41,572 bases of DNA from the IMG/VR virus record IMGVR_UViG_3300045947_000141, positions 1-41,572 of that record; one strand, written 5' to 3'. A model generated the notes under the pieces. It made no database searches, had not been told where the DNA came from, and saw nothing but the letters and a program-made list of their open reading frames with translations. This stretch comes from a virus. Both the position numbers and the translations under genes were made by a program. Below are positions 1 through 41,572 of the stretch, piece by piece; within the stretch, counting starts at the first letter, position 1, and the number at the start of each line of letters is the position of its first letter.

Positions 1-127
1 TCACGCACCTCCCTTGATCATCCGCACCACACCCTGCACCGCCGCGCGCTTCTCCTCGCGCGTGACCGCCGAGTAGCGCTCGCCGCTCTCGCCGTCTGCG
101 TGCCCGACGAGCGCACGCCGCACGAGC
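1..127. repeat. Terminal direct repeat, left copy (circular overlap)
   Basis: Bases 1-127 are identical to 41446-41572. The repeat joins the truncated right end to the left end without breaking any gene: the int stop codon at 1-3 is directly followed, on the minus strand of the circle, by the queC start at 41445. A repeat of exactly 127 bases is what a de Bruijn assembler with k=127 leaves on a circular contig, so it is best read as an assembly overlap and not as a packaged terminal redundancy. Confidence 0.93.
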
Positions 128-1221
128 TCGGACGCGTTCTGCCGCACGAGGTTGTTGCACGTGTGCCGAAGCATGTGAATCGTCGGCCGGCCGTCGAGCT
201 CGACACCAGCCGCCTTGCACACGCGCAAGATCGACTTCCGCGCGTGCGTGTTCGAGACGTACGTTGCTCCGACACGCCGCGACGGGAAGACGAGCGCACC
301 GCCGATCGCGCTGAGCTCGCGCTGGTGCTCGCGTAGTAGGTCGCGCAGCTCCTCGGGAATGACGATCGTGCGCTTGCTGCACTTCGCCTTCACGTGCCCG
401 ACATGCCCGCGCCATTGCGCGCGGCGCACACGGATCGTGCACGCGTCCAGATCGACGTCACGCCACTCGAGCGCGGACGCCTCGCCGAAGCGCAGGCCGG
501 TCCACGCCATGGTCGCGACGAGCGCCCACGCTCGACGCCACCAGGCGAAAGGCTCCGTGCGACGCTCAAGCGGTCCTACTGCCGTTGAATCGGACTGCCG
601 GGTTTTTGTCCCGGGCGCTTGAGCGCCGCACGCAACCGGCCCCGCGACCAAGAACGAGCGCAGCTCCTCGAGCGAGAGCCCGCGGCCCTCGTCCTCGATG
701 CGCTCGTCCTCGCGCACGTCCCGCTTCACGCTCACGCCCTCGACGATGTGCGTGCACTTCTCCTCGTGCGCGAACGTACGCAGCACGCGGAGGCGCCCGT
801 CGACCGTATCCGTAGCGTCTCCGCCCTCGCGAGCGCCGAGGAGCGCACCGCGCACGTCGGCGGGCTCGATCGCGTCGAGCCAGTAGTCGCCAAGGAGCTC
901 GCGCCACCACGCGACCGCGCTTCCGTACGTGCTGTGCGTGCTCGGTTTCACCGCCAGCTTCTTCTCGGCAAGCCACGCGTCCATGGCTTCACCCAGCCTC
1001 CGACGTGCGCCGCTTGGTGTCGCGCGAGTGCGCTCGTTCAGCCATTTTGCGCGCTCGCTCGCGCGGACTCTCGCCGCCTCCGGCGCGTCGGCCGCTACGA
1101 TCTGCCTGTCGATCTCGTGGCGCTTGCCGGTCTTGGGGTGAATCAGCTCCGCGCGGATCCGATACCACCGCTGCCCCAGCTCGTCCGTGTGCAAGTACGA
1201 CACTCCCGGAAATCTCTTCAT
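1..1221 (-). CDS. int: Tyrosine recombinase, phage integrase
   Basis: Site-specific recombinase, 406 aa, that should integrate the circle at a host tRNA-Gly gene and, with Xis, excise it. The N-terminal part (about 1-170) holds the arm- and core-binding region. The catalytic domain shows the family residues: Arg in TGLRFGE (about 244), a Lys in KAKCSKRT, HMLRH (His and Arg about 349/352), GH about 374 and the nucleophile Tyr in GERYS about 383. The ATG at 1221 is chosen because GAGAGG lies just upstream; the frame is open to 1287 but without a better start. Around residues 200-221 there is an extra loop encoded by a structured palindromic segment (see 563-625). The stop TGA abuts the queC ATG, so int and queC are probably co-translated. 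Confidence 0.93.
   Translation of the reverse strand: MKRFPGVSYLHTDELGQRWYRIRAELIHPKTGKRHEIDRQIVAADAPEAARVRASERAKWLNERTRATPSGARRRLGEAMDAWLAEKKLAVKPSTHSTYGSAVAWWRELLGDYWLDAIEPADVRGALLGAREGGDATDTVDGRLRVLRTFAHEEKCTHIVEGVSVKRDVREDERIEDEGRGLSLEELRSFLVAGPVACGAQAPGTKTRQSDSTAVGPLERRTEPFAWWRRAWALVATMAWTGLRFGEASALEWRDVDLDACTIRVRRAQWRGHVGHVKAKCSKRTIVIPEELRDLLREHQRELSAIGGALVFPSRRVGATYVSNTHARKSILRVCKAAGVELDGRPTIHMLRHTCNNLVRQNASELVRRALVGHADGESGERYSAVTREEKRAAVQGVVRMIKGGA
563..625 (-). repeat. 63-bp structured palindromic insert inside int
   Basis: The ends form a perfect 10-bp inverted repeat, CGCTCAAGCG at 563-572 and CGCTTGAGCG at 616-625. The interior folds as two further small hairpins: GTCC/GGAC (573-576, 592-595) and CCGGG/CCCGG around a T-rich loop (about 598-614). 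The length of 63 bases is a multiple of three and keeps int in frame. It adds about 21 residues between the core-binding and catalytic parts, a place where integrases normally have a short linker. This resembles a repeated palindromic element inserted in a coding region. A copy elsewhere in a host genome has not been checked. Confidence 0.55.
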
Positions 1222-1420
1222 CTCGACCTCTCCGAATCCACGCGTCCACGTCGGACACGTGGAAGAGCAGGATCCCTCTCGCGCCACGTCCGTACAACAC
1301 CGGGCCCTTGCCCCTGCGCACGAGCTGCCGCACCGCGCTTGGAGTGCAGCGCAAGATCTCGGCTACCTCGAGCGTCGAGAGCAGCGCGCGCACGTCCTCG
1401 CTCACGCGTGCGTCACCCAC
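989..1420 (-). CDS. xis: Excisionase-like MerR-type HTH protein
   Basis: The first 66 residues of this 143 aa frame are a compact helix-turn-helix of the excisionase/MerR group: LSTLEVAEILRCTPSAVRQL followed by a basic wing and VSDVDAWIRR. Such proteins bend DNA and steer integrase toward excision. The GTG start at 1420 overlaps the end of the upstream gene by 8 bases. The int start at 1221 lies at codon 67, exactly where the HTH domain ends, so the remaining 77 Arg/Ala/Asp-rich residues overlap the int N-terminus in another frame. That tail may have no function, simply lacking a stop in GC-rich DNA. The domain call is by motif only. Confidence 0.72.
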   Translation of the reverse strand: MGDARVSEDVRALLSTLEVAEILRCTPSAVRQLVRRGKGPVLYGRGARGILLFHVSDVDAWIRRGRDEEISGSVVLAHGRAGAAVVSDPRGADSPQDRQAPRDRQADRSGRRAGGGESPRERARKMAERAHSRDTKRRTSEAG

Positions 1421-7731: not shown

Positions 7732-9768
7732 ATGATGAGCAACGCGGCACCGCTACCCCCGATGGTTGACCTTGCGCTGTCTTACGCGGCGCACGGCTTT
7801 CGTGTCTTCCCGCTGAACGGAAAGGCGCCTGCCATTCCCGGGGGTAGCGGTTGCCTCGATGCCACCACGGATGCCGACGTGATCCGGGAGATGTGGAACC
7901 GGTACCCCCACGCAAACGTGGGACTCGCAGCCGGTCCTGAGTCCGGCTTCTTCGCCATTGACCTTGACGGTCCTGACGCGCGGCGTGCCTGGATGAAGCT
8001 TGTCGAGGCGCATGGCGCCATCTCCACGCGCTGCGCTCGCACCGGGCGCGAGGAGGGCGGGCTGCATATGTTCTTCCGCTGGCCTACGGGAGGCGTTCCC
8101 AATCGCCCCGAGGGTGCTTGGAGTGAGCGCGTCCTGGGTCACCGCCGCATGGGGGTGATCGCGGACGGTCGCTACGTGGTGGGCGTTGGCTCCATTCACC
8201 CGGACACGGGTCAGCAGTACGACTGGGACGACGAGCGAGTGGAGATCGCTGAGGCGCCCGCGTGGCTCGTCGCGAAGATCCGCGACGTGCGGCCCCGGCC
8301 CGCGCGAGACCCCTGGGAACTACCGGCGACCCCGGCGGGGGACTGGAGCTCATACAACCTGGCAACGCTCGACTACAAGTACGAGACCGTAGCGAGGGCG
8401 CCGGAGGGCGAGCGCATCAACAGTCTCTTCCGCGAGACGGCTTCTCTCGCGAATCTCTGTGCGACCACCGGCATGAGCGAGTCGGACATCAGGAACACGA
8501 TGATCGCCGCGTGCCGGGCGAATGGCCTCTGGGAGACGGACGGCGAGCGTCGGTGCTGCGAGACGATCAGGAACGGCATCGAGCGCGGCAAGCAGACGCC
8601 ATGGATGCCCGATTCGAAGGATGGGCCGGTGCACACCTTTCAGCAGCCTGATTCCGCGCCTGCACCGGAGCTCTCCACGCCAGACATGGCAGCGGTCTGC
8701 CGGTCCCTCCCCGGCAAGCACAAGCGCATCAGGACGTACTGCGAGCCGCTAGACGCTGCGACGGGGGCCGGCTTCCAGACGGGCCGCATCATCGCCATCG
8801 GCGGCCCGCCCGGCGTAACGAAGACGGGGTGGGCCCTGGCGATGAGCTACGCAATGGCCCGCCTGGGCGTCCAGACGTCCACGGGCCAGCACGAGGTCCA
8901 TGTCCACGTGTTTGCCGCCGACGAGCCCAGGGACGGGCTCTTGAGCCGCCTGGGGCAGATGGAGGGCGTTACCCGCTCTGACCTTGAGGACGAGGACCCC
9001 TTCGTCTCCAGGCCCGCATGGGAGCTTCTCGCGACGAGACTCGCAGCGGTCCCCCAGCTGTCCATCTGGGACCCACGCGTGGAGCGGGTGACTGTGGAGG
9101 ACGTGGCCGCCCACGCCGCACGCCGCGCGCGCGCCGATGGTGCGCGGCTAGTCCTCGTCATCGACTCCATCCAGCAAGCGCCCTTCGCGTGCGACGACCC
9201 CCGGGCCAGCACGCGCGAGCGCGTGGAGGCACGCATGCGGGCTCTGCGCCGCATCAGCGTGGAGCACGATGCCTGCATCATCGCCATCAGCGAGCTCAAT
9301 CGCTCCGCGTACAGCGGCCGTGAGGCGAAGGCGGACCTCGGCAGCTTCAAGGAGGCCGGGGGCATCGAGTACACCGCAGACCTCGCCATGACCCTCGCGC
9401 GTGTTGCGGATCCGGACCTCTTCCTGGTCCAGGTCACGCTGCACAAGAGCCGGTTCGGCGATGAGCCAGGCTTCCGCCTGCGCCGGACACCGCAGTGCAC
9501 CTTCGAAGTGCACAGCGAACCGGAAGCAGTGGACCTGGATGCCACCGTCGCCGAAGAGGCGCGGCTGGAGAAGCTCTGCAACGAGCTCGTGCTCGCGCTC
9601 GTTCGGTCCAAGGGACCGGTGACTACCCGCAACGACCTCGTGACCATGATCCGCGCCAAGCGCCAGGATGCTCAGGCAGCAGTCTCCCGGCTCATCACTT
9701 CCGGGCGCATTGAAGGTGGCAAGGGCACCCCGTTCCGGGTGTCTTACGCCACGGAGGATACGGGATAG
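7732..9768 (+). CDS. Bifunctional primase/polymerase-helicase
   Basis: 678 aa. Residues about 12-190 are a prim-pol domain: HGFRVFPLNGKAPAIPGG, DVIREMWNRYPHANVGLAAG, FFAIDLDG (the metal-binding Asp-x-Asp), GGLHMFFRWP. After a linker a RecA/DnaB-like ATPase follows, with Walker A GGPPGVTKTG at about 356 and Walker B LVLVIDSIQQ at about 473, then ELNRSAY and a C-terminal winged-helix part (about 620-675). It should prime and unwind phage DNA. A palindrome-rich region that may be the origin begins directly downstream. Start is ATG 7732 or 7735. Confidence 0.9.
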   Translation: MMSNAAPLPPMVDLALSYAAHGFRVFPLNGKAPAIPGGSGCLDATTDADVIREMWNRYPHANVGLAAGPESGFFAIDLDGPDARRAWMKLVEAHGAISTRCARTGREEGGLHMFFRWPTGGVPNRPEGAWSERVLGHRRMGVIADGRYVVGVGSIHPDTGQQYDWDDERVEIAEAPAWLVAKIRDVRPRPARDPWELPATPAGDWSSYNLATLDYKYETVARAPEGERINSLFRETASLANLCATTGMSESDIRNTMIAACRANGLWETDGERRCCETIRNGIERGKQTPWMPDSKDGPVHTFQQPDSAPAPELSTPDMAAVCRSLPGKHKRIRTYCEPLDAATGAGFQTGRIIAIGGPPGVTKTGWALAMSYAMARLGVQTSTGQHEVHVHVFAADEPRDGLLSRLGQMEGVTRSDLEDEDPFVSRPAWELLATRLAAVPQLSIWDPRVERVTVEDVAAHAARRARADGARLVLVIDSIQQAPFACDDPRASTRERVEARMRALRRISVEHDACIIAISELNRSAYSGREAKADLGSFKEAGGIEYTADLAMTLARVADPDLFLVQVTLHKSRFGDEPGFRLRRTPQCTFEVHSEPEAVDLDATVAEEARLEKLCNELVLALVRSKGPVTTRNDLVTMIRAKRQDAQAAVSRLITSGRIEGGKGTPFRVSYATEDTG

Positions 9769-39361: not shown

Positions 39362-39629
39362 CACGTTCCTCCTCGGCGTGCGGCGGGGTGTCGGCATCGG
39401 CGGACTCGATCGTGACGTAGCACCACGTGTACAGGAGGGGGCCCAGCACTCTCGCCTGCTCCGACGTTACACGCACCGAGAACTCGGGCTCGTATCCGAA
39501 GCGCTCGAACACGGCAAAGCACGGCCCGGTCCCGCTGAACGATGTCCCGCTGCCCACCTTGATTAGCCGAGCATGGATCTTCACTCGCGTCCCCGGGCGC
39601 GACCCCGGGACAGTCTTACGATCGCTCAC
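39354..39629 (-). CDS. Beta-rich hypothetical protein, first gene beyond attP
   Basis: 91 aa, strand-rich (TRVKIHARLIKVGSGTSFSG, EFSVRVTSEQARVLGPLLYT). The GTG at 39629 forms a GTGA overlap with the stop of the dpdA-queD frame, so in the circular phage it is coupled to that gene; in a prophage the two would lie at opposite ends. Function unknown. Confidence 0.6.
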   Translation of the reverse strand: MSDRKTVPGSRPGTRVKIHARLIKVGSGTSFSGTGPCFAVFERFGYEPEFSVRVTSEQARVLGPLLYTWCYVTIESADADTPPHAEEERDE

Positions 39630-40834
39630 TTCACGTCACTCCTCGCGGCCTCGCCGCGTTCTGAATCGCCCGTATTTCCCACCGATTCGGCGCCTTCTGC
39701 GCTAGGTGGTGTGCTTCCCAAGCTGAATGTCGCCGGTTCGATCCCGGTCACCCGCTCTTGAAAACGGGGCAAATGCTTGATGTTCTTGGTGCTGGAGTAC
39801 TGAACATCCGTTTGAAACCCCGGCTCGATCCCCGGCAAACTTTCGACGTCGCCCGGCTCGCAGATGGCCGCGCTCCGCCCGTTCTCACGCACCACGAGCC
39901 GCGAGAGGACGACCTCTCCCCAAAGATGCGTCGAGAGCCTGCGCCAGAGCCAGACCGTGAGATGCTCGCTCGTAGGGTTCTCGAGCCCCTCGATCTCGTT
40001 CAGGTAGCGATGGTCGAGCATCTTGCCGGCGATGGCGTCCCACGCCGCGTCAAGCATCCCGAAGTCGCGCACCCAACCCATTGTTGGATCGACGGGCCCG
40101 CTCACTTCGATTTCGACCTCGTACGTGTGTCCATGCAGCCGCGAACACTTGTGGTCTGCCGGAACATTCGGCAGCCGATGCGCCGCCTGAAACGTGTACG
40201 TGCGCGAAATCTTCATCGTCCGATCCACCTTTGCGAGTAGGTTTGGTTCATTGCGCCACCGGTCGACGCGGGGCACGTTGTCGCCGAAGCGCGTGCCTGA
40301 CGTGCCGTCAACCGAGTCCGCTCCGCTGTCGAGGCACCAGCGCATCCGCGCTCGCGTGTTCACGCGGCCAACGTGGTAGTAGATGTTCCGCTCGCCACAC
40401 CACCATCCCCACGGAACAATGTTCGCGTCCTTCCACGCATCGGAGCCGCCGAGGAAGATGCCGCGATTCGGGCGGCCGTCTAGCAACTCTTCCACGAGCT
40501 CGTGCGACATGCCGTCTTGCACGGCGAGCAGTACGCGCCGAAATCCATCAAGTCGCGGAAGCCACTCGCGAGCGAGCCGCGCTGTCTGATCGCCATCGGC
40601 TACGACATCGGGCGCGATGATGAAATCGGCATCCGCGCCGAGTCGCTCCACGGCACGATCGAAGCGCGCGAAGTCATACGGTCGACCGTCGCGGCACGTC
40701 CATGCGCCGTTGTCGAGCGCGTATCGGAACCCTTCGTTGCGTAGACTGCCGAACGCCGAGATGAAGAGCCGCCAACCCTTCGCGCACATGGCGGCGAGGT
40801 TCTTGCGGGTTCCGGTTCGTGAGGCGTACATCAT
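39626..40834 (-). CDS. dpdA-queD: DpdA-QueD fusion: DNA 7-deazaguanine transglycosylase plus CPH4 synthase
   Basis: 402 aa in one frame. Residues 1-206 resemble short phage DpdA proteins, TGT-fold enzymes that exchange guanine in DNA for a 7-deazaguanine: RYALDNGAWT (Asp41), FIIAPDVVADG (Asp76), AVQDGMSH, GIFLGGSDAWK and GADSVDGTS. Residues 207-328 are a complete QueD (6-carboxytetrahydropterin synthase): His219, Cys230, His234/His236 in KCSRLHGH, His275 in LDHRYLN, GLENPTSEH and Glu317. An internal ATG at 40216 has AAGGTGG 8 nt upstream, so free QueD may also be made. Residues 329-402 have no family counterpart and cross the tRNA-Gly half. The ATG at 40834 overlaps the queC stop (TGATG). The enzyme pair would use host-supplied FolE and QueE. 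Confidence 0.82.
   Translation of the reverse strand: MMYASRTGTRKNLAAMCAKGWRLFISAFGSLRNEGFRYALDNGAWTCRDGRPYDFARFDRAVERLGADADFIIAPDVVADGDQTARLAREWLPRLDGFRRVLLAVQDGMSHELVEELLDGRPNRGIFLGGSDAWKDANIVPWGWWCGERNIYYHVGRVNTRARMRWCLDSGADSVDGTSGTRFGDNVPRVDRWRNEPNLLAKVDRTMKISRTYTFQAAHRLPNVPADHKCSRLHGHTYEVEIEVSGPVDPTMGWVRDFGMLDAAWDAIAGKMLDHRYLNEIEGLENPTSEHLTVWLWRRLSTHLWGEVVLSRLVVRENGRSAAICEPGDVESLPGIEPGFQTDVQYSSTKNIKHLPRFQERVTGIEPATFSLGSTPPSAEGAESVGNTGDSERGEAARSDVK
39713..39757 (+). other. attP: attP core: 3' half of tRNA-Gly(CCC)
   Basis: From GCTTCCCAAGC, the 3' side of an anticodon arm with CCC anticodon, the sequence continues as a tRNA-Gly 3' half: T-arm GCCGG-TTCGATC-CCGGT (39732-39748), acceptor strand CACCCGC (39749-39755) and discriminator T. 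The matching 5' acceptor strand GCGGGTG, D-arm and 5' anticodon stem are absent, so this is not a functional tRNA. Tyrosine integrases often use tRNA 3' halves as attachment cores, which restore the host tRNA on integration. It lies within the 3' end of the dpdA-queD frame on the opposite strand. Confidence 0.82.
39779..39808. repeat. Inverted repeat beside attP
   Basis: GATGTTC (39779-39785) and GAACATC (39802-39808) form a perfect 7-bp dyad around 16 bases, 22 bases to the right of the attP core. It could be a binding site for integrase arms or Xis, or a hairpin in the dpdA-queD mRNA. There is no T-run to suggest termination. Confidence 0.4.
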
Positions 40835-41445
40835 CACCGCGCTGGGTCGGACTCGCCGATCTCCGCAAACGCCCGCGCGCGCACCTCGCACGCCAAGCAC
40901 TCACCGCACTTCACCGGACGTCGTGCGCCAGCGTCTTTCGGTGCGTAGCAGCTCCACGTAAGCGCCACTGCGTCCCAAGCCCCCGGAACGCTCCGCGCCA
41001 AAGACAACGTTTCGGCCTTGGTTTTGTGAACGAGCGGCGCGTCGAGCCGCGCCCCGAGCGCCAGCCGTAGGACGTCATCGAGCGCAAGGATGAACTCGGG
41101 CCGGCAGTCCGGGAAGCGCTCCGCATCATCAGCACAGCACCCCATGACCACCGTGCCGCCGGGGACGTGTGCGGCGGCGAGGGACGCAAGGATGGCGTTG
41201 CGGCCGGGCACCACGACGTCTCCGACACCATCGATCAGCGCATTCGAGCACCACGGAATCGTCGCCTTCGCTTCGATGAGCCTGACCCCGGCCTGGCTCG
41301 CAATCTGTCTCGCTGACGTGAGCTCGGTTGCGTGCCGTTGCCCGTAGTCGATCGACAACGCCATCACCGACGCAAACCGCTCCCGAGCGAGGTGAAGACA
41401 AATCGCCGAATCGAGCCCGCCGGACAACAGCACGCACGCCTGCAT
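40834..41445 (-). CDS. queC: 7-cyano-7-deazaguanine (preQ0) synthase QueC
   Basis: 203 aa. It turns CDG into preQ0 using ATP and ammonia. The PP-loop motif SGGLDS is at 8-13, DYGQRHATE at 33-41, VPGRNAILASLA at 79-90, CADDAERFPDCRPEF at 104-118, and the zinc site is Cys166, Cys180, Cys183, Cys186 (VKCGECLAC). All expected catalytic and zinc residues are present and there is no added amidotransferase domain. The ATG at 41445 abuts the int stop across the circular junction, and its stop overlaps the dpdA start, so int, queC and dpdA-queD form one unit. With DpdA next to it, the product is probably destined for phage DNA and not only tRNA queuosine. Confidence 0.93.
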   Translation of the reverse strand: MQACVLLSGGLDSAICLHLARERFASVMALSIDYGQRHATELTSARQIASQAGVRLIEAKATIPWCSNALIDGVGDVVVPGRNAILASLAAAHVPGGTVVMGCCADDAERFPDCRPEFILALDDVLRLALGARLDAPLVHKTKAETLSLARSVPGAWDAVALTWSCYAPKDAGARRPVKCGECLACEVRARAFAEIGESDPAR

Positions 41446-41572
41446 TCACGCACCTCCCTTGATCATCCGCACCACACCCTGCACCGCCGCGCGCTTCTCC
41501 TCGCGCGTGACCGCCGAGTAGCGCTCGCCGCTCTCGCCGTCTGCGTGCCCGACGAGCGCACGCCGCACGAGC
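41446..41572. repeat. Terminal direct repeat, right copy
   Basis: Identical to 1-127 and encodes the same C-terminal end of int on the minus strand; it is not a second gene. It shows that the sequence is circular. Confidence 0.93.

Follow-up and report, generated by a model that had tools for sequence, protein, structure and literature searches.

In the 7-deazaguanine DNA-modification pathway, QueE and QueC act between the QueD and DpdA steps. The preQ0 cassettes of phages Rosebush and CAjan encode QueC, QueD and a DpdA-type enzyme, as well as FolE and QueE, all as separate genes (PMC6884629). Phages devoid of biosynthesis genes have also been described, and were proposed to possibly use the 7-deazaguanine precursors of their host (PMC6884629). 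The phage analysed here shares QueC, QueD and a DpdA-type enzyme with Rosebush and CAjan, but it has neither FolE nor QueE, and its dpdA and queD are fused into one reading frame. The enzymes and the likely pathway are of a known kind, and the question arises as to how such a fusion was formed and what it produces.

The window, that is, the whole stretch of 41,572 nucleotides that was analysed (IMG/VR record IMGVR_UViG_3300045947_000141), carries at its two ends an exact direct repeat of 127 bases (1-127 and 41446-41572), so that the genome is complete and circular, with a length of 41,445 bp. The phage is temperate, and across the circular join the genes follow the order int-queC-dpdA-queD on one strand. 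The circularity, the integrase, the attP-like site and the non-QueD tail had all escaped the preliminary description of this DNA. The features of this region are the following:

41446-41572, no strand: direct terminal repeat, identical to 1-127.
1-1287, minus strand: tyrosine integrase (Pfam Phage_integrase, E 2.4e-14), preceding queC when the circle is closed.
40834-41445, minus strand: queC (Pfam QueC, E 1.8e-43), its stop overlapping the dpdA start.
40217-40834, minus strand: mini-DpdA domain, a predicted TGT/DpdA-like TIM barrel, fusion residues 1-206 (phrog_15826, E 3e-35; pLDDT 93.7; TGT and DpdA matches in the PDB; hhalign 97.3%, E 2.6e-11).
40214-40232, minus strand: putative internal ribosome site AAAGGTGG (40225-40232) and queD ATG (40214-40216), from SD energy and frame translation.
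39842-40216, minus strand: QueD domain, fusion residues 207-331 (Pfam PTPS, E 1.3e-30; TIGR03367 above cut-off; invariant residues).
39626-39841, minus strand: C-terminal tail, residues 332-402, with no QueD counterpart, overlapping the attP-like site.
39713-39757, plus strand: attP-like, equivalent to the 3' half of a tRNA-Gly(CCC) (score 24 against E. coli glyU over 45 nt).

The integrase stop overlaps the queC ATG region across the circular junction (TGAATG), and the queC stop overlaps the dpdA ATG (TGATG), so that queC indeed lies immediately before the fusion, where a preliminary description of this DNA had placed it. Elsewhere in the genome we found a P22-type portal (weak match), an SU10-type adaptor, a terminase small subunit and a primase-polymerase/helicase; the last is a single protein (7732-9768, plus strand) joining a primase-polymerase to a DnaB-type helicase. 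A GC-rich tandem repeat, with periods of 9, 12 and 21, is present at 1990-2181.

QueC retains the SGGLDS motif and a four-cysteine zinc motif, C-x13-CxxCxxC, whose spacing differs from the C-x8-CxxCxxC described previously (PMC13329287). It scores below the cut-off of the QueC equivalog TIGR00364 (132.7 against 150.3 bits), and PADLOC ranked QueC above QatC for this gene. No match to GTP cyclohydrolase I (FolE) and none to radical SAM proteins was obtained in the complete genome; QueE, a radical SAM protein, is therefore absent. The earlier view of the locus as a compact 7-deazaguanine module was in this respect overstated, and the FolE and QueE steps would have to be supplied by the host.

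The fused frame itself (39626-40834, minus strand) runs through 402 codons, from a DpdA-like domain into a complete QueD, with no stop in between, as had been reported. Residues 208-326 match Pfam PTPS/QueD (E 1.3e-30), and the QueD equivalog TIGR03367 is passed with 94.3 bits for a cut-off of 89.25. The zinc histidines, the catalytic cysteine, the Asp-His pair and the glutamate are all kept (H13, C24, H28, H30, D68, H69 and E111 are invariant in the alignment). The limits first proposed for this domain, residues 207-328, are nearly right, but the alignment brings its end closer to residue 331, where most other QueD proteins terminate, and the tail that follows (332-402) is not QueD. In Vibrio phage nt-1 (L309, 1487-2419), the QueD-like protein is 310 aa long and contains PTPS twice, which might reflect a tandem duplication.

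The N-terminal domain is less readily identified. It went unrecognised in searches with Pfam, PADLOC and the PDB sequences, and its residues 2-198 match phrog_15826 (E 3.4e-35), a family annotated as of unknown function. An AlphaFold model built from the 52-member family alignment predicts an alpha/beta TIM barrel (pLDDT 93.7); its matches in the PDB include the TGT 3blo (E 3.6e-4) and the DNA preQ0 insertase DpdA, 7ui4 (E 2.4e-3), although other TIM barrels score similarly. Comparisons with single sequences (E. coli Tgt, phage 9g DpdA, Sonali gp87) were weak, and the relationship became clear only against the family profile of longer phage DpdA proteins, 9g DpdA included (hhalign 97.3%, E 2.6e-11). 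In this profile alignment the DNGA, PD and VDGT motifs pair with the acidic motifs of DpdA, and D41, D76, Q106, G129-G130 and D176 are invariant in the 52-member alignment. D41, D76 and D176 are the predicted catalytic aspartates (general base and nucleophile). The TGT-type zinc motif (CxCxxC...H) is not present in the 206 residues. Judged by profile and structure comparison, its only ties to characterised DpdA, the domain is a distant and diverged DpdA relative, in keeping with the preliminary assignment of residues 1-206. Taken together, the TIM-barrel model, the profile match and the invariant residues make its identity as a DpdA-like transglycosylase well supported; its substrate may be DNA. 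We know of no biochemical activity for this short family.

Mini-DpdA proteins are also encoded in many proteobacterial genomes (loci L088-L144), with no que genes detected beside them, and on plasmids such as NZ_CP142123 and NZ_CP096947, where they are annotated as hypothetical. In an Erythrobacter phage (L005, 7460-8503) and a Stutzerimonas plasmid (L306, 1656-2798), a PAPS-reductase-like gene lies near mini-DpdA.

We fetched 159 distinct mini-DpdA sequences, the window included, the viral scans contributing the best 80 of larger match lists. queC was found in the same-strand locus for 37 of them and queD for 24; in 12 of the 159, queD lies directly downstream of mini-DpdA, in a separate frame. 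The window holds the only DpdA-QueD fusion of this set, and since the viral scans kept the best 80 of larger match lists, other fusions may exist. Nor was such a fusion described in the literature that we searched, a search that was not exhaustive and does not prove absence; to this extent the initial remark that no described fusion was known holds. One plasmid match that continues about 20 residues beyond the join was discarded, because its frame ends there and does not enter a QueD.

The relatives also suggest what may have happened at the join. Most stand-alone mini-DpdA proteins end a little beyond the helix next to the DGT motif, just where the frame of the window continues, and in several neighbours dpdA and queD meet through an ATGA overlap or an abutting stop and start. 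Frame translation of the window reveals the same ATGA, with a TGA overlapping the queD ATG, but out of frame (+1); the fusion is thus one base away from the usual layout. Because the C-terminal similarity to DpdA can be followed in frame as far as 'NLLA', at most 8 codons from the join, a small indel in the last dpdA codons would be the simplest origin. An exact search for the window junction, with the run allowed to vary, returned no second copy, nor did any close relative turn up that could prove the indel.

The start of queD appears to have been preserved within the fused frame. The internal ATG at 40216 is preceded, 8 nt upstream, by AAAGGTGG, with a pairing energy of -7.2 kcal/mol against the anti-SD. 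The phage's own gene starts have similar values, and as strong a site is found at only 9 of the 114 other in-frame internal ATGs, so that the strong ribosome site noted initially holds up and free QueD is probably made in addition to the fusion.

Downstream of QueD, the tail (residues 332-402) is antisense across a tRNA-Gly-like site at 39713-39757, which is probably attP. This reading is based on a half-tRNA alignment to glyU, which scores 24 here and about 14 in the best windows of the rest of the genome; ARAGORN and Rfam called no tRNA. Four proteobacterial genomes were searched for the tRNA-Gly pattern, which none of them contained, so that no host tRNA gene could be named. Near 39823 there is another stretch resembling a T-arm. 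If the site is attP, integration would replace the last 30 to 40 residues, which are hence unlikely to matter, and the tail is probably non-functional.

Our preferred reading, held with moderate confidence, is that of an ordinary 7-deazaguanine DNA-modification cassette in which loss of a stop created the fusion, free QueD being produced from the internal start. The temperate phage would carry, next to its attachment site, the co-directional int-queC-dpdA-queD cassette. The FolE of the host would make the GTP-derived precursor, phage QueD, host QueE and phage QueC would convert it to preQ0, and mini-DpdA would swap guanine in DNA for preQ0, a modification that would probably shield the DNA of the phage from restriction. 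Where dpdA and queD normally overlap by ATGA or abut, the two frames would here have become one, for which a small indel in the final dpdA codons is the simplest cause; translation from the dpdA start would then give DpdA-QueD and translation from ATG 40216 free QueD, the fusion having no special role beyond being tolerated. What speaks against this reading is that mini-DpdA is also encoded in many proteobacterial genomes and on plasmids with no que genes at its side, and that neither a close relative supporting the indel nor, to our knowledge, a biochemical activity of the short family has come to light.

Three other explanations are considered. The one that survives best, although we find it rather unlikely, is an error of assembly or sequencing, in which a contig indel of one base would mask the stop that normally ends dpdA, while in the phage itself dpdA and queD would be separate, overlapping genes. 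One base does restore the usual ATGA layout, and all fetched relatives are unfused. However, the only run at the join site is an AAA, which carries no special risk of error; the frame of 402 codons is intact elsewhere, and the exact end repeat closes the genome.

Less probable is a selected bifunctional enzyme, in which QueD tethered to DpdA would tie synthesis of the preQ0 precursor to DNA insertion, co-localising supply with insertion or fixing stoichiometry, alongside free QueD; as the frame runs through the putative attP, the tail would then not be the same in the phage and in the prophage. The fused frame is intact, conserved residues are kept in both domains, and both domains fold in a model of the fusion (mean pLDDT 90.5, residues 189-203 being of low confidence), a model whose alignment is imperfect around the join, so that it allows no conclusion on how the two domains are arranged. 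Against this, no other fusion occurs among the 159 sequences, the QueE and QueC steps intervene between the two activities, the internal queD start is retained and the non-QueD tail spans the probable attP. Moreover, there is no dedicated linker, and the join coincides with the point at which, in relatives, a stop overlaps or adjoins the start of queD; this is more readily explained by a small stop-loss than by the evolution of a bifunctional enzyme.

Finally, mini-DpdA might modify tRNA or protein, because proteins like QueC are involved in the deazaguanylation of proteins as well (PMC13329287); it would then be akin, for instance, to the QueC-like and TGT-like proteins of type IV CBASS that attach deazaguanine to protein. 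A Cap10-CdnD complex is among the PDB matches as well as DpdA, and many members have no que neighbours, but we judge this quite improbable given a QueC that looks standard by Pfam and motif and that PADLOC puts above QatC, an adjoining QueD that points to preQ0 synthesis, and the profile link to phage DpdA.

The fusion, the only one of DpdA and QueD found in these searches, is by itself modest news unless it proves real in the phage and functional. It also places an uncharacterised short family, phrog_15826, beside queC and queD, which makes that family a testable candidate DNA-modification enzyme. Among known systems, the 464-aa DpdA2 of Vibrio phage nt-1 (phrog_10773) is likewise a predicted phage DNA 7-deazaguanine transglycosylase (PMC6884629), but it has no detectable similarity to mini-DpdA, and was rejected as its parent family. 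DpdA of the phage 9g type (phrog_887) is closer: it is also a TGT-like transglycosylase found beside que genes, and its motifs align with those of mini-DpdA in profile comparison (DNGA/DSGA, PD/LD, VDGT/TDSS). It is however longer (about 300 aa against 206), gives no significant single-sequence match and belongs to a separate phrog family. The proteins named 'DpdA-like tRNA-guanine transglycosylase' by SEA-PHAGES (for example Arthrobacter phage Sonali gp81 and Mycobacterium phage GreaseLightnin gp55) belong, by tblastn and alignment, to the same short family; their genes stand alone, whereas that of the window is fused to QueD.
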